Assembly: GCF_900128485.1 (NCBI RefSeq)
Contig: NZ_LT635859.1
Location: forward strand, 495,869-559,868
Source of the DNA: Duodenibacillus massiliensis
GTDB lineage: Bacteria; Pseudomonadota; Gammaproteobacteria; Burkholderiales; Burkholderiaceae_F
DNA: 64,000 nt
Reading direction: 5' to 3'
The notes beneath the pieces are model-generated. The model saw nothing but the letters and a program-made list of their open reading frames with translations. It made no database searches and was not told the origin of the DNA. A program made the translations under genes and the position numbers. This document shows positions 12,158 to 64,000 of this stretch, one piece after another; position 1 is the first letter of the stretch, and each line of letters opens with the position of its first letter.

Positions 12158-12273
12158 GCCCGGCAGTGTCCTACTTTCACTGGAAATACAACCAACTATC
12201 ATCGGCCCAGAAGCGTTTCACTGTCCTGTTCGGAATGGGAAGGAGTGGTACCGCCACGGTATGGCCGCCGGGC
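12158..12273 (-). rRNA. rrf: 5S ribosomal RNA
   Basis: Terminal helix GCCCGGCGGCC pairs near the end with GGACACTGCCGGGC. The conserved CCGAACAGG-type loop and GATGATAGT segment are present. About 116 nt, last gene of the rRNA operon. Confidence 0.95.
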
Positions 12274-12431
12274 AAAGCCTGTTGTCTCAGAAGTTCTTTA
12301 ATTGAACTCCCGTGACGAAGTCTTTGCAAAAAGAAGTAAACGTCGGAACGCGATTATTTGCATTCACTGCGCTTCAAAATCCATTGTCCGTTTCTCAACT
12401 GCCTCACATTAGGCTAGGCAGCACGGTTATA

Positions 12432-15314
<2,883 letters not shown>

Positions 15315-15492
15315 TATAACCCTGCAGCCTTTTGCCCGCAGAGTATTCACGTGACTGATTTCGTAACGTGCTGTTCTCTTGGTTAATTCGTTGAGATTCT
15401 CGTTCAATGAAGATTTGAAACTCAGTTCAAATGCAATCACATCCCGTTTCAGCGTCTCATCAACGCTGAAATTGAACGCTTTACTTCTTTTT

Positions 15493-15510
15493 CCAAATTT
15501 TTAAAGAGCT
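15493..15510 (-). promoter_or_regulatory. boxA-type antitermination site before 23S
   Basis: Minus strand reads AGCTCTTTAAAAATTTGG, close to the boxA consensus TGCTCTTTAA. It is placed in the 16S-23S spacer, as is usual for Nus-factor antitermination of rRNA transcription. Confidence 0.6.
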
Positions 15511-15584
15511 CGGTGCATCTTCGTACTGAAGACACTCCGTTTAAATGTTTTCAGTTCTCACTGAAAACGCTTAAACCGGGCGTC

Positions 15585-15660
15585 TGGTGGAGACAAACGG
15601 GATCGAACCGTTGACCCCCTGCTTGCAAAGCAGGTGCTCTCCCAGCTGAGCTATGCCCCC
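15585..15660 (-). tRNA. tRNA-Ala (TGC)
   Basis: In the 16S-23S spacer. Acceptor GGGGGCA pairs with TGTCTCC, the anticodon loop TTTGCAA gives anticodon TGC, and CCA is encoded. Confidence 0.98.
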
Positions 15661-15681
15661 GCGTGTTTCATGCACTGCGTT

Positions 15682-15758
15682 TGGTGGGTCTTGATGGACT
15701 CGAACCATCGACCCCCGCCTTATCAAGACGATGCTCTAACCAGCTGAGCTAAAGACCC
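15682..15758 (-). tRNA. tRNA-Ile (GAT)
   Basis: In the 16S-23S spacer. Acceptor GGGTCTT pairs with AAGACCC, the anticodon loop TTGATAA gives GAT, and CCA is encoded. The Ile-Ala order is the common proteobacterial one. Confidence 0.98.
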
Positions 15759-15784
15759 AACCGCATTACAACTTCAACAGACTC

Positions 15785-15800
15785 AACCGATAAGTGTGGG
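15785..15800 (-). repeat. 16S processing stem, 3' arm
   Basis: On the plus strand AACCGATAAGTGTGGG is the exact reverse complement of 17515-17530. The pair would bring together the 16S leader and trailer for RNase III. Confidence 0.75.
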
Positions 15801-15844
15801 AACTTCCTTCTTTTACTGCAGTTCCTTTTCAGAAACATTCTCTA

Positions 15845-17379
<1,535 letters not shown>

Positions 17380-57279: not shown

Positions 57280-57705
57280 ATGGCACTTAAAAGCCTTCAG
57301 ACGCGCAAGAAACGCCGCATGATGAGCGACATGAACGTCGTTCCCTATATCGACGTGATGCTTGTGCTCGTGGTGATTCTGATGGTCGCCGCCCCTTTTG
57401 TGAACCCTTCGGTCATTAATCTGCCAAGTGTTTCCAAGGCTTCCGCCGCACCCGCCAATCCCGTTGAAGTCGTGGTGCACGCCGACGGTCACCTCTCGCT
57501 TAAAGTCCAAAATGGGCTCAGGCCCGTTGACATGACGGCTCTCATTGCCAACGTGCGTTCGGCGCAGGCCGATGCCGACACGCCGGTCGTGATCGCCGCC
57601 GACCGCGATGTGCGCTACGAGCAGGTCGTGAACGTCATGAAAGCCCTGCAAAACGCCGAAATCAAGCGCGTGGGCCTCGCGCTGAAGATTGAGCGCACGA
57701 AATGA
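57280..57705 (+). CDS. tolR: Tol-Pal system protein TolR
   Basis: 141 aa. One membrane helix near residues 20-40 contains the proton-conducting Asp in VVPYIDVMLVLVVI. A periplasmic domain follows (VVIAADRDVRYEQVVNVM). AAGGACAG precedes the ATG. Its stop overlaps the tolA start (ATGA). Confidence 0.95.
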   Translation: MALKSLQTRKKRRMMSDMNVVPYIDVMLVLVVILMVAAPFVNPSVINLPSVSKASAAPANPVEVVVHADGHLSLKVQNGLRPVDMTALIANVRSAQADADTPVVIAADRDVRYEQVVNVMKALQNAEIKRVGLALKIERTK

Positions 57706-59021
57706 GCGAAGGCAATCAGGATAAGCGCGAAGATCCGCAGGATCTGCAGTCGGACCGGACTCAGACGGACAATGAGTCCGGAGATCCCGCGCGCCTTGCG
57801 CCCGCCAATTCCCGTCTGACGGATGTACCGGCTGGCGTCATTGCGGCGGTGGCTGTGCACGGGCTCCTCTTTTTCGCGCTCTTTAACGTCTTTCAGTGGA
57901 ATACGGATACCGAAACGGTCTACGCCGAACTCTGGGCGCCGGAAGACGCCTCCGGCATGAGCCTCAAAGGCACGACGCAGGAAACCGAGGAAGAAGCTCC
58001 TGACAACAAAGCGGCACCGGCGCCGGAAGAACCCACGGCCGAAGAACTGCAGCTCAAAAAAGAAGCGCAGGTGAGACGTGAGGCGCAGCGCCTTGCCGAC
58101 GAAAAGGCGCGCGCCGAAGCTGAAGCAAAGGCGCAGACTGAAGCTCAGAAGCTTCTTGAAGAAGAGCGCCGGGAAGCAGAACGCAGAGAGGCCGAGCGTC
58201 TCGAGGCTGAGCGCCTGGAAGCTGAAAAACGGGCCGCCGAAGAAGCTGAACAAAAGCGCCGCGAAGAAGATATCCGTATCGCTGAAGAAAAGCGTCTGGC
58301 GGAAGAAAAGCGTATTGCCGAAGAAAAACGCATCGCCGAGGAAAAACGCATCGCTGAGGAAAAACGCATCGCCGAAGAAAAGCGCCTCGCTGAGGAAAAA
58401 CGCATCGCCGAGGAAAAACGCATCGCTGAAGAAAAGCGTATCGCCGAAGAAAAGCGCCTCGCTGAGGAAAAGCGCATCGCCGAAGAGAAACGCATTGCAG
58501 AGGAAAAGCGTTTGGCGGAAGAAAAACGCATTGCGGAAGCCAAAAAGCGTGCCGAAGCTGCCCGCCGCAAGCGCATTGCCGAAGAAAAACGCCGGCAGGC
58601 GGAGCTCGCTGAAGAAATGCGTCGGGCCGAACTCGCCCGCATCACCGGGGCACCCGCCGTTACTTCGGGCCGCGTGGGCTCAACGCGCGGCACACCGGGC
58701 GTTGAACGCTCGATGCAGGGGAAACTCTCTGCAGCGTACGCCTCACGCGTCATCAGCTGCATCCGGCCCTTTATCCTGTTTTCCGTTCCCTCGGGCATTG
58801 CCAGAGGCACGCATGTGGCCGTCTACAGCGTGAGACTTCTTCCGAACGGCAAAATCGCCGAAACCCCGCGTATGACGCAAAGCTCGGGGCTTCCCGCCTT
58901 TGACCGGGCCGTGCGGCACGCCATCAGCCGCTGCAATCCCTTCCCGCGGCCCCTTGGCAACACCCCGATGCCGCGGCGCATGGAGATTTCCTTCGATCCG
59001 GTTGAAGACGCACAGCCCTGA
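57702..59021 (+). CDS. tolA: Tol-Pal system protein TolA
   Basis: 439 aa. A single membrane anchor (about 45-63, AGVIAAVAVHGLLFFALF) is followed by a long helical domain II, then a C-terminal TonB-like domain III (VYSVRLLPNGKIAETPRM near 383). Domain II contains 14 perfect-to-near-perfect hexapeptide units AEEKR(I/L). It spans the periplasm and links TolQR to Pal. Overlaps tolR by four bases. tolB and pal do not follow: a terminator and convergent genes come next. Confidence 0.95.
   Translation: MSEGNQDKREDPQDLQSDRTQTDNESGDPARLAPANSRLTDVPAGVIAAVAVHGLLFFALFNVFQWNTDTETVYAELWAPEDASGMSLKGTTQETEEEAPDNKAAPAPEEPTAEELQLKKEAQVRREAQRLADEKARAEAEAKAQTEAQKLLEEERREAERREAERLEAERLEAEKRAAEEAEQKRREEDIRIAEEKRLAEEKRIAEEKRIAEEKRIAEEKRIAEEKRLAEEKRIAEEKRIAEEKRIAEEKRLAEEKRIAEEKRIAEEKRLAEEKRIAEAKKRAEAARRKRIAEEKRRQAELAEEMRRAELARITGAPAVTSGRVGSTRGTPGVERSMQGKLSAAYASRVISCIRPFILFSVPSGIARGTHVAVYSVRLLPNGKIAETPRMTQSSGLPAFDRAVRHAISRCNPFPRPLGNTPMPRRMEISFDPVEDAQP
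58281..58532 (+). repeat. tolA: 18-bp coding repeats in tolA
   Basis: Fourteen consecutive 18-bp units encode AEEKRI or AEEKRL. Codon choice varies between units (GCC/GCT, GAA/GAG, CGC/CGT), so the array is partly diverged rather than freshly expanded. Confidence 0.9.
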
Positions 59022-60912: not shown

Positions 60913-61251
60913 ATGCTTCACGTTGTCAAAGTCCGCATCTACCCGACAGAGGAACAGCAACAGTTCCTGCGCGGGCAATTTGGCGCCGTGCGTTACTGCT
61001 ACAACAAAGCCGTCGCCATAAAGAATCATTGCTATAAGGTTCATGGCGAGAGCCTCAGTGTTATTAAGGACATTAAACCGCTGCTGACGAAAGCCAAAAA
61101 ACTACACAATCACTGCTGGCTTAAGCAATACGATTCCATGGCGGAGCAGGAAGCGGTCCGCAATGCAGATAAGGCCAAAGGCGGAAGGGCTGTCCGTCTC
61201 TGCTCGCGGAGGCTGTGTAAGTCACAACGACAGTTGTGCTGTAGCCGTTGA
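60913..61251 (+). pseudogene. TnpB (IS200/IS605 OrfB) relic with internal deletion
   Basis: 112 codons. Residues 1-85 are a TnpB N-terminus (VRIYPTEEQQQFLRGQFGAV, then RYCYNKAVAIKNH and SMAEQEAVRNADKA). The RuvC domain, zinc finger and all catalytic residues are missing. After about 61186 the frame joins what looks like the extreme C-terminal coding part of TnpB (SRRLCKSQRQL). The centre of the gene has therefore been deleted in place. It cannot be a nuclease. Confidence 0.8.
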
Positions 61252-61373: not shown

Positions 61374-62774
61374 TCAGAGCCCGAGCTCCTGAATCTTTCG
61401 CGTGAGCGTGTTGCGCCCCACTCCGAGCTTTTGCGCTGCCTCCACCTTGCGGCCGTGCGTAAAGTCAAGTGCCGCGCGAAACACCGCGCACTCAAAATCG
61501 CGGGTAAATTTCGCCATTACTTCCGGAGCTCCAGTAGTCAGTGCCACGCGGATTTCGTCTTTGAGCGCCGATGTCCACTCGCCCTCGGCACCGCCCTTTA
61601 CGGCATCCTTTGCCGCCTCACCCCGCAAAAACTCGTCCGGTAAGTCTTCGGTCCGGATCCACTGGCTCGGGGCCATCACGGTAAGCCAGTTACAGAGATT
61701 CTCAAGCTGCCTCACGTTTCCCGGAAAAGGGAAACGCCGTATAAAGTCCAGCGCTTCGGGCTTTAAGTGCTTGCGTTCTGTTTTGAGGTTTTTCGCGGCC
61801 TCAGCCAAAAAGTGATCGGCCAAGGCCGCAATGTCTTCAGAGCGCTCGCGCAGGGGCGGAAGCCTGAGACGAATCACATTTAAGCGGTGAAAGAGGTCTT
61901 CACGGAAAAGGCCTTCGCGCACGCGGGCCTCCAGGTTTTGGTTCGTAGCGGCAATGACGCGCACATCACTTCTGATTAACTGACAGCCCCCGACGCGGTA
62001 AAAGCACCCGTCCGACAAAACGCGCAAAAGCCGCGTCTGCATCTCCATCGGCATGTCGCCGATTTCGTCCAGAAAGAGCGTGCCGCCCTTAGCCTGCTCA
62101 AAGCGCCCGTACTGCAGGGAGTTTGCCCCAGTAAAGGCCCCCTTTTCGTGGCCGAAAAGTTCGCTTTCAAGGAGTTCCCTCGGTATCGCTGCCGTATTGA
62201 TCGCCACAAACGGTGCCGAGCGGCGCGGCGAATGATTGTGAAGGGCGCGCGCCACCACTTCCTTACCGGTACCGGATTCGCCCGTCACAAGCACTGTGAC
62301 GTTACTTTGAGAAAGCCGCCCGATTGCCCGAAAGACTTCCTGCATGGCAGCGGACTGTCCGATGATTTCGGGCACCGCCTCCCCTGTCTCAGTCTGTGGC
62401 GTCTCCGAGGCCCCCGACTCTTCGCAGGCACGGCGCAGAAGTTCAATCGCGCGGTTGATGTCAAAGGGCTTGGCGAGGTACTCGTACGCTCCGCCCTGAA
62501 AGGCGTTCACCGCACTGTCCAGGTCACTGAAAGCCGTCATGATGATGACCGGCACTTCCGGATGCTCTTTTTTGACGGTGTGAAGGAGCTCCATGCCGGA
62601 CGTCCCCTTCATACGGATATCACTTAAAAGCACTGAGGGCGTTTCGGCCTGAAGCGCCGCAATGACGTCAGCGGCATCCTCAAACATCCGGAAAGGCAGG
62701 TTCTCGCGCTGCAGCGCCTTTTCAAGCACCCAGCGGATGGACCGGTCATCGTCAACAACCCAAATGGCTTTCAT
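61374..62774 (-). CDS. glnG: NtrC-family nitrogen response regulator
   Basis: 466 aa, the size of NtrC. Receiver with VDDD (7-10), phospho-acceptor Asp52 in LLSDIRM and Lys in LAKPFD. The sigma-54 activator core has Walker A GESGTGKE near 165, the sigma-54-contacting GAFTGA near 213 and Walker B LFLDEIGD near 232. A Fis-type helix-turn-helix is at the C-terminus (KVEAAQKLGVGRNTLTRKIQ). It activates nitrogen-limitation genes. Its usual kinase partner (glnL/ntrB) would lie upstream, but an IscB element occupies that place. Confidence 0.92.
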   Translation of the reverse strand: MKAIWVVDDDRSIRWVLEKALQRENLPFRMFEDAADVIAALQAETPSVLLSDIRMKGTSGMELLHTVKKEHPEVPVIIMTAFSDLDSAVNAFQGGAYEYLAKPFDINRAIELLRRACEESGASETPQTETGEAVPEIIGQSAAMQEVFRAIGRLSQSNVTVLVTGESGTGKEVVARALHNHSPRRSAPFVAINTAAIPRELLESELFGHEKGAFTGANSLQYGRFEQAKGGTLFLDEIGDMPMEMQTRLLRVLSDGCFYRVGGCQLIRSDVRVIAATNQNLEARVREGLFREDLFHRLNVIRLRLPPLRERSEDIAALADHFLAEAAKNLKTERKHLKPEALDFIRRFPFPGNVRQLENLCNWLTVMAPSQWIRTEDLPDEFLRGEAAKDAVKGGAEGEWTSALKDEIRVALTTGAPEVMAKFTRDFECAVFRAALDFTHGRKVEAAQKLGVGRNTLTRKIQELGL

Positions 62775-62792
62775 AGAAATTCCGCGAGGAAA

Positions 62793-62812
62793 CCCGCGTC
62801 TTCAGACGCGGG
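62793..62812 (-). repeat. Hairpin at the end of the IscB element
   Basis: CCCGCGTC (62793-62800), loop TTCA, GACGCGGG (62805-62812): a perfect 8-bp stem overlapping the iscB stop codon, 19 bp before the ntrC start. It resembles the subterminal hairpins of IS200/IS605-type elements recognised by Y1 transposases. Confidence 0.6.
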
Positions 62813-64000
62813 AGGAATCGCGGCCCTCCTTTCTCAGTTCAGTTAAAAACATCTTTCGCTTCTCAAGAAGCGAAAGTTTCTTGTAGGAAATACCGGCAGA
62901 AATCTTTGTACCGTTCAGACGGCGCACATCGAATGCACCCGAGGAGCGTCTGCCAAAAATAAAGCCCACTTCCCCTTTGCACAGCACCTTGTCAAAGAGC
63001 CTGAAGCCGTGCACTAGGTACGGAGCCCGATGGCGCTTGCGCACACCGCCTTTGAGAATCGTCAGCTTGTGGATCTGGCGATTGTGGCGGCGCGTCTGTT
63101 TCTGAAACAGGTATTCGCCCCGACGTTTTGCGTCGAGGACGCCAGCAATGCAGAAAGCGTCCGCGCAATGCGTCTTCGGCAAGCCCTCGACGATGCGCTT
63201 GTGTTTGGTCAGATACCCGTAGGTATTCGTGACAGGCAATTCGGGATGGCGCTCGCGCAGGCGGTTGAACACCGTCCAACGCATGATGCCCATGAAAGTC
63301 TCTGCCCTGAAAGAAGCGCAGCGCCGGGGACTGAACTGCTTCAACTTGCCTGCGTGATACGCCTTGTGGCACGCCTCGCACAGCGTGATGAGGTTGCCCG
63401 GCGCGTCGCCTCCCGTTTTCCGACTCTCAATGTGATGCACGTTGAGAATCAGATCTTTCGATCTGCCTTTGCAGGCTTGGCAAACGTGACCGTCGCGGAA
63501 CAGCACATATTCGCGCACGTTCCAAAAGCCAAGCTGCTCGCCCTGCTGATAGCCTTCGCCTTCAATCTCTGGGTTTTTGATCTTCTGAATGTCGAAGGAT
63601 GCGGTTTCAATCACGATTTTGGTGATCGGAAGCACTCGGCAAACCGCTTCAATGCGCGATATGTGCGCCTGAATGCGGTTCTCCACGGACGGCGCAAGCC
63701 AGCCCTTGTGCTCCGATCGAACGCGGTTGGCAAAGCGTGGTGCGCGGTAGCGGGTCTTGCGGTTGCGTCGGGCGCGGCGAAGTGCCAAGCGATTCGAGAG
63801 CAAGCCCGTCACGTCCTGCCGCAGTTCGACCTCGAAAGCCAACAACTCTTCCTTGGCGGTCGTTGCGCTCAGGCCGACGTGCTTGTAGCCCGCATCCACA
63901 CCCAAGGTGATCGGCTGCTTGGTTTCGCCCGTCGGCACCGTCAGTTGAATCACAAAGGGCGTTCGGCGCACAGGCACGGCCTTCCCGGCCCGAAGGAGCT
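62802..64000 (-). CDS. iscB: IscB RNA-guided nuclease (N-terminus beyond window)
   Basis: At least 399 codons, open at the right edge. The visible start reads GKAVPVRRTPFVIQLT, the end of the IscB PLMP-domain region, so GTG 63977 is internal. Domains then follow in IscB order: RuvC-I ITLGVDAGYKHVG (Asp), Arg-rich bridge helix LRRARRNRKTRYR, RuvC-II VIETASFD (Glu), HNH with zinc cysteines (CQAC, then LNVHHIES, GNLITLCEACH), RuvC-III HCADAF (His/Asp), and a C-terminal target-interaction domain. All catalytic residues are present. IscB is the Cas9-ancestor family and uses an omegaRNA encoded upstream of the gene, which here would lie outside the window. Confidence 0.93.
   Translation of the reverse strand, partial: LLRAGKAVPVRRTPFVIQLTVPTGETKQPITLGVDAGYKHVGLSATTAKEELLAFEVELRQDVTGLLSNRLALRRARRNRKTRYRAPRFANRVRSEHKGWLAPSVENRIQAHISRIEAVCRVLPITKIVIETASFDIQKIKNPEIEGEGYQQGEQLGFWNVREYVLFRDGHVCQACKGRSKDLILNVHHIESRKTGGDAPGNLITLCEACHKAYHAGKLKQFSPRRCASFRAETFMGIMRWTVFNRLRERHPELPVTNTYGYLTKHKRIVEGLPKTHCADAFCIAGVLDAKRRGEYLFQKQTRRHNRQIHKLTILKGGVRKRHRAPYLVHGFRLFDKVLCKGEVGFIFGRRSSGAFDVRRLNGTKISAGISYKKLSLLEKRKMFLTELRKEGRDSSRV

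Follow-up and report, generated by a model that had tools for sequence, protein, structure and literature searches.

The closest described relatives of the locus analysed here are the IscB/HEARO (ISC) elements of the IS200/IS605 superfamily (OMEGA systems), with which it has in common the protein family, a 5' HEARO RNA (RF02033) and an ATGA behind the element. An integration preference for ATGA/GTGA was reportedly described by Weinberg in 2009. The available text of two further reports shows that IscB, HEARO RNA and ATGA-type motifs are already known (PMC9755519; PMC9581776), and that of the latter describes ATGA as a TAM accepted by the relative DtIsrB as well as a Shine-Dalgarno (SD) sequence inside the last hairpin of the omegaRNA, which is reported for the nuclease's own gene (PMC9581776). 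ATGA is not mentioned in the available text of PMC13180657 or PMC9640706. Placement at a start codon and an end made of an SD, a stem and a spacer were not found described for known IscB/HEARO elements in a literature search that covered few subscription papers, and our claim to novelty is limited accordingly.

A precedent for such an end comes from phage T4, where an SD is brought near the AUG of genes 38 and 25 by a looped-out stem, an arrangement that the available text treats as established (PMC3014915). In T4 the split ribosome-binding site is fixed in phage genes and has been reporter-tested, whereas here a transposon end stands before many host genes and its role is putative. Herein we describe an IscB-omegaRNA element from Duodenibacillus massiliensis that sits exactly before the ATGAA of ntrC, and whose end is likely, with a probability that we put at roughly 0.6, a portable split ribosome-binding site that would keep ntrC translated.

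The IscB-omegaRNA element and its copies

The window, by which we mean the whole stretch of 64,000 nucleotides that was analysed, holds part of the element on its minus strand (62775..64000), with boundaries taken from an alignment of copies; outside the window the element continues to approximately 64371, which is the end of the HEARO RNA. Elsewhere in the window are an rRNA operon comprising 16S, two tRNAs, 23S and 5S (12158-17379, minus strand), and a TolA-like frame (57702-59021, plus strand) that contains an extended series of IAEEKR-type repeats and lies behind frames judged by eye to be ybgC-, tolQ- and tolR-like.

The C-terminal part of iscB occupies 62802..64000 on the minus strand, and the gene runs on past the right window edge. 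The preliminary description had proposed an intact IscB in one unbroken frame, and this was borne out: the open reading frame at 62802-63998 (minus strand) is uninterrupted, with no stop up to the window edge, and matches the NCBIfam profile 'RNA-guided endonuclease IscB' with 323.5 bits (cut-off 175) in addition to the Pfam families RRXRR and HNH. The catalytic and zinc-binding residues it had pointed out were largely recovered in a nine-member alignment reaching down to 31% identity, in which RuvC-I D35, RuvC-II E131, RuvC-III H277 and D280, HNH H189 and N202, and the CxxC pairs C173/C176 and C207/C210 are all invariant; the RuvC and HNH roles given to these residues are those we take them to have. 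Of the proposed HNH His/Asn/His set, the first two members thus held throughout, while the last, H211, is present and is invariant in a closer four-member set only, not throughout the nine-member alignment.

Past the window edge the N-terminus reads MENTLKVFVLNMRGQPLMP, so that the anticipated PLMP start is found there within a QPLMP motif. The stop or frameshift just beyond the edge that might have spoken against an intact gene is absent, as the frame remains open across a 5-N assembly gap that lies inside the iscB of the window copy and starts one base past the edge (L001:2697-2701). This gap has AGCT on either side, and the stretch is 9 bases longer than in sister copies, resembling a short unjoined overlap; in the five sister copies compared, IscB is 425 aa long. 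The structured omegaRNA expected to end at the element boundary was likewise located past the right edge, where HEARO (RF02033) scores 132.4 bits (gathering score 83) and extends to that boundary. Across loci, HEARO was found upstream at the element boundary in 14 of the 20 given, the window locus included. Profile match, catalytic residues, PLMP N-terminus and upstream omegaRNA together place the protein among the IscB nucleases, whose solved structures include OgeuIscB and other IscB proteins. From its sequence we infer that the window copy, with an assembly gap in its iscB, is probably a functional nuclease.

Aligned copies have sharp boundaries, the last element base in the window being 62775. 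The element has defined ends with hairpins, a fixed target, and empty sites in relatives, as is characteristic of the IS200/IS605 type. Regarding mobilisation by TnpA, there is no tnpA within the element and the genome contains nine Y1 transposase matches; the left end is common to iscB and tnpA elements, and the right ends differ. At the right, both kinds of element have a hairpin with the loop TTCA, its sequence not being the same. A shared right end was considered and rejected, with GTTGAC at the element end in 0 of 8 tnpA loci (one distant match, L028) and the likeness residing solely in a similar type of hairpin and a final GTTTAC.

Searching the genome (2,353,688 bases in 22 contigs) with the IscB protein gave 35 matches, nine of which extend over the full 398 query residues, eight of them being free of internal stops. 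Some internally deleted iscB copies also remain in frame, and one copy with an internal tandem duplication still has an open frame of 757 codons (L010/L014; G000:C22:468585-470672). A search for the HEARO end yielded 22 matches, of which 19 were full-length. At least 24 iscB-type ends share the final 95 bases of the element, and at least another nine ends, of the tnpA type, share the final 55, both being lower bounds because 40 of 51 candidates were scored. Within the family, an iscB relative at E 1e-30 occurs in 17 of 67 genomes, the source genome counted, with close relatives in Sutterella wadsworthensis and Parasutterella excrementihominis, a distribution that suggests a source bacterium of the Sutterella type from the gut.

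Host genes directly behind the element ends

The more informative side of the element is its 3' end, which lies at the ntrC start, is present in multiple copies and carries an SD/stem-loop cassette. Directly behind it is ntrC (glnG; 61374..62774, minus strand; TIGR01818, 677.8 bits against a cut-off of 558.6), whose start codon together with part of codon 2 forms the ATGAA at 62770..62774 (minus strand; TTCAT on the plus strand), presumably the target of TnpA and the TAM of IscB. Beyond the opposite end of the element, past the window edge, is a gene that appears ntrB-like by eye, and the other end of ntrC adjoins an N-terminal remnant of an IS200/IS605 tnpB (60913-61251, plus strand; HTH_OrfB_IS605, 54.3 bits). 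The start of ntrC is conserved in congeners. Eight of the nine searched had an ntrC match, and in all eight the element is absent from the 70 nt upstream and the start codon (ATG, TTG or GTG) aligns with that of the window ntrC. For lepB, another host gene, the start was complete in seven of eight matching congeners; each of the seven starts with ATGAA at the same position and lacks the element. The former ribosome-binding site of ntrC is the AAAGGA found in the left flank 8 nt before the insertion point, and it now lies approximately 1.6 kb upstream of the gene. Insertion separates each host gene from its own ribosome-binding site in this manner.

ATGA stands directly behind every iscB-type end found (24/24, the number of ends being at least 24). 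Of these 24 ends, 19 open a frame of 90 codons or longer, compared with 117 of 438 background sites, which are the ATGA sites of the 64-kb window (P 1e-7); the remaining five have no frame of 90 codons behind them. When a short upstream frame, a trait of true starts, was required as well, 13 of the 19 copies with both flanks passed versus 42 of 438 background sites (P 9e-10). As insertions within genes would be purged, start-like versus intergenic ATGA sites (27 versus 36 in the window) form a fairer null, against which 19 of 24 still stands out (P 3e-4, on simple gene calls).

NCBIfam models that start no more than 12 residues from the ATG match 13 of the 19 host proteins, several of them below the family cut-off, and such N-terminal support was absent for the other six. 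The matched products are NrdG, LplT, NtrC, SerC, a YdiK-like transporter, SppA, LepB, a BilS-like flavodoxin, LolC/E, a TrhP/UbiU-like protein, a copper P-type ATPase, an erythronate dehydrogenase-like protein and a histidinol-phosphatase-like protein. Both lepB and lolC are essential in Escherichia coli; in the genome analysed here lepB is single-copy, with one match, and LolC/E has one full match and a weak, partial second one.

A Shine-Dalgarno, stem-loop and spacer cassette

Read toward the host gene on the minus strand, the element ends with a Shine-Dalgarno-like AAAGGAGG (62825..62832) that lies within the last iscB codons, one base, a double stem-loop (62782..62823) and the 7-nt spacer AATTTCT (62775..62781), which leads from the stem to the host ATG. 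In the double stem-loop, which derives from fold prediction and from covariation across 43 ends, an outer stem of six pairs (62818-62823 with 62782-62787) opens, is followed by an inner hairpin of eight pairs (62805-62812 with 62793-62800), and closes before the spacer. No ATG occurs in the element between its SD and the host ATG. The heptamer AAGGAGG, the double stem-loop and a distance of 7 nt to the host ATG are found at 24 of 24 iscB-type ends, giving the layout of a split ribosome-binding site, with SD, stem, short spacer and start codon in conserved order.

The tnpA-type elements of the same genome provide a comparison. Those compared are 1751 bp long and encode TnpA and a TnpB-like protein (TnpB by eye) from genes in the opposite orientation to the iscB element. 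Their last 55 bases are 87-100% identical to those of the iscB type, and the TTCAT/ATGAA site is common to both. Stem-loop and spacer are as in the iscB type, whereas an A/T-rich stretch replaces the SD in the tnpA-type ends examined, which were eight of the nine; AAGGAGG is present in 0 of these 8 versus all 24 of the iscB type, and a frame of 90 codons or longer follows 3 of 8 versus 19 of 24 (P 0.07).

Among eight folded ends the double stem is the predicted minimum in six, and two do not form it. In the fold of the window sequence the SD is predicted to pair with the spacer (unpaired probability 0.01-0.14). In columns 26-33 of the 43-end alignment described below, a TTCCTCC that hardly varies separates the stems; it is complementary to the SD, and an alternative hairpin hiding the SD could form. 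Such a switch, pairing GGAGG with TTCCTCC, was considered and is not claimed, because the double stem is mostly the minimum and TTCCTCC is kept in the tnpA elements that are free of an SD.

For comparison across taxa, the best 80 of 435 loci from a scan of genome contigs were taken and 72 used, the other eight being excluded for an early end of the iscB match or of the contig. Among these best 80 of 435, the cassette layout also occurs in records of Pseudomonadota, Bacillota, Synergistaceae and Desulfovibrio, whose host names may err since some are metagenome bins; the host frames behind it include some judged by eye to be hisA-, nadD-, yhbY- and rapZ-like. Alignment A3 has 43 rows, consisting of 55 called ends minus 6 doubtful and 7 similar ones, plus one copy of our own. 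In it, 86.0% of cells are paired versus 62.6% in shuffles, the covariation score is 0.599 versus 0.175, and 12 of 14 pairs have changed on both sides; in 22 of the 43 ends the outermost pair is not formed. A match of at least 6 nt to the anti-SD lies beside the stem in 33 of 43 ends versus 15% of shuffles. The stem-loop also occurs in tnpA elements and its sole function may be in the action of TnpA, so this covariation is no proof of a role as RNA.

The reading frame of the heptamer varies over the 72 loci, being RKE-type in 15, ERR-type in 25 and the third frame in two, with a further eight heptamers behind the iscB stop, and these counts include some chance hits (L126, L128, L175 and L184 at least, as judged by eye); by the same rule no heptamer was found in 22 of the 72. 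Its occurrence in differing iscB frames or behind the stop suggests that the heptamer is selected at the nucleotide rather than the protein level. In seven loci (L143, L151, L153, L178, L180, L192 and L228) the host ATGA gives iscB its TGA stop, making a 4-base start/stop overlap.

Using an automatic rule that takes the first ATGR behind the end, and that sometimes took the SD-containing alternative hairpin for the inner hairpin, an open frame spanning 90 codons or more was found at 30 of 54 genome loci called (of 72) versus 202 of 802 controls, and at 21 of 41 viral-contig loci called (of 69) versus 93 of 539. The viral loci numbered 80, of which 76 were taken with five duplicates removed for a motif caller, and 69 were taken for the automatic rule. 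Ends with and without an SD did not differ significantly in the proportion followed by an open frame, either by the motif caller, itself unreliable (55 of 72 genome and 25 of 71 viral loci called; L139 mis-called), with 23/37 versus 7/18 in genome loci (P 0.15) and 7/13 versus 6/12 in viral loci (P 1.0), or by the automatic rule, with 16/26 versus 14/28 (P 0.43) and 11/23 versus 10/18 (P 0.76), respectively. A strict two-stem end caller was unreliable as well. Because all four comparisons were non-significant, the presence of an SD as a predictor of start-codon insertion was rejected and is not claimed. Three loci (L064, L065 and L133, from G054, G051 and Sutterella seckii) have the stem-loop without an SD, and the frames behind their ATGA are short or doubtful.

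Proposed translation of the host gene behind the element

We propose the following scheme. The element would be moved to TTCAT, which is ATGAA on the other strand, by an IS200/IS605 TnpA whose gene lies at another place in the genome. The guide of IscB lies outside the element, and its transcription must therefore begin in the DNA of the host; sense transcription of a gene leader would supply this. Host transcription through the leader would yield the omegaRNA, with the region of the former host ribosome-binding site as guide, and IscB would cut the empty site, consisting of guide and ATGA. Ribosomes would bind the SD of the element and initiate at the host ATG, brought to a distance of approximately 8 nt by the folded stem-loop. 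Under the proposed insertion and ribosome-binding scheme, the host promoter would drive guide and nuclease while the host gene is spared. By analogy with T4 genes 25 and 38, we infer that the end probably acts as a portable split ribosome-binding site.

The main rival to this reading is translational coupling, in which ribosomes ending iscB would re-initiate at the host ATG, with the SD at most assisting and no stem being looped out. In its favour, the stop of the window iscB (62802-62804) lies 28 nt before the host ATG, and in 18 of 106 loci the iscB stop by rule overlaps the start of the host gene (as ATGA or as TGATG/TAATG), of which 15 remain once L171, L249 and L262, at least, are set aside as by eye not at the element end. 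However, copies with a broken or nearly deleted iscB precede intact frames (L030, before nrdG, as well as L045, L047 and L050), and the heptamer persists behind the iscB stop in L134, L165 and L169. We regard coupling as an unlikely substitute for the split ribosome-binding site, although it may act alongside it.

We are similarly doubtful, placing it just after coupling, that a TCAT/TTCAT transposase target combined with the loss of in-gene insertions suffices, the SD-like heptamer having no host role. This would agree with the use of the same target by tnpA-type elements free of an SD, and with the lack of a significant difference between SD-plus and SD-minus ends across taxa; it sits less well with the over-representation of starts even against intergenic ATGA sites, as judged by simple gene calls, and with a heptamer that is kept beside the stem across different reading frames. 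That the insertion instead silences ntrC, its ribosome-binding site lost and its protein no longer made, is suggested by the displaced AAAGGA in the left flank, but ntrC is a full-length, high-scoring profile match and lepB and lolC show the same arrangement, making this outcome very unlikely.

We advance a broader proposal tentatively, at somewhat short of even odds: IscB/HEARO elements would be start-codon parasites that repair their own breakage, in which the start codon of the host gene doubles as the ATGA target and TAM, the promoter is that of the host, the guide is the former ribosome-binding site, and the element brings a portable split one. Were this true, even essential genes would tolerate insertion, and the use of ATGA as the TAM of these Cas9 ancestors would be explained. 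The proposal gives a rationale for the site that an ancestral RNA-guided nuclease targets, suggests that its guide RNA may be transcribed from host promoters, and points to a transposon that would pay for its insertion by lending the host gene a ribosome-binding site, in a layout found in several phyla.
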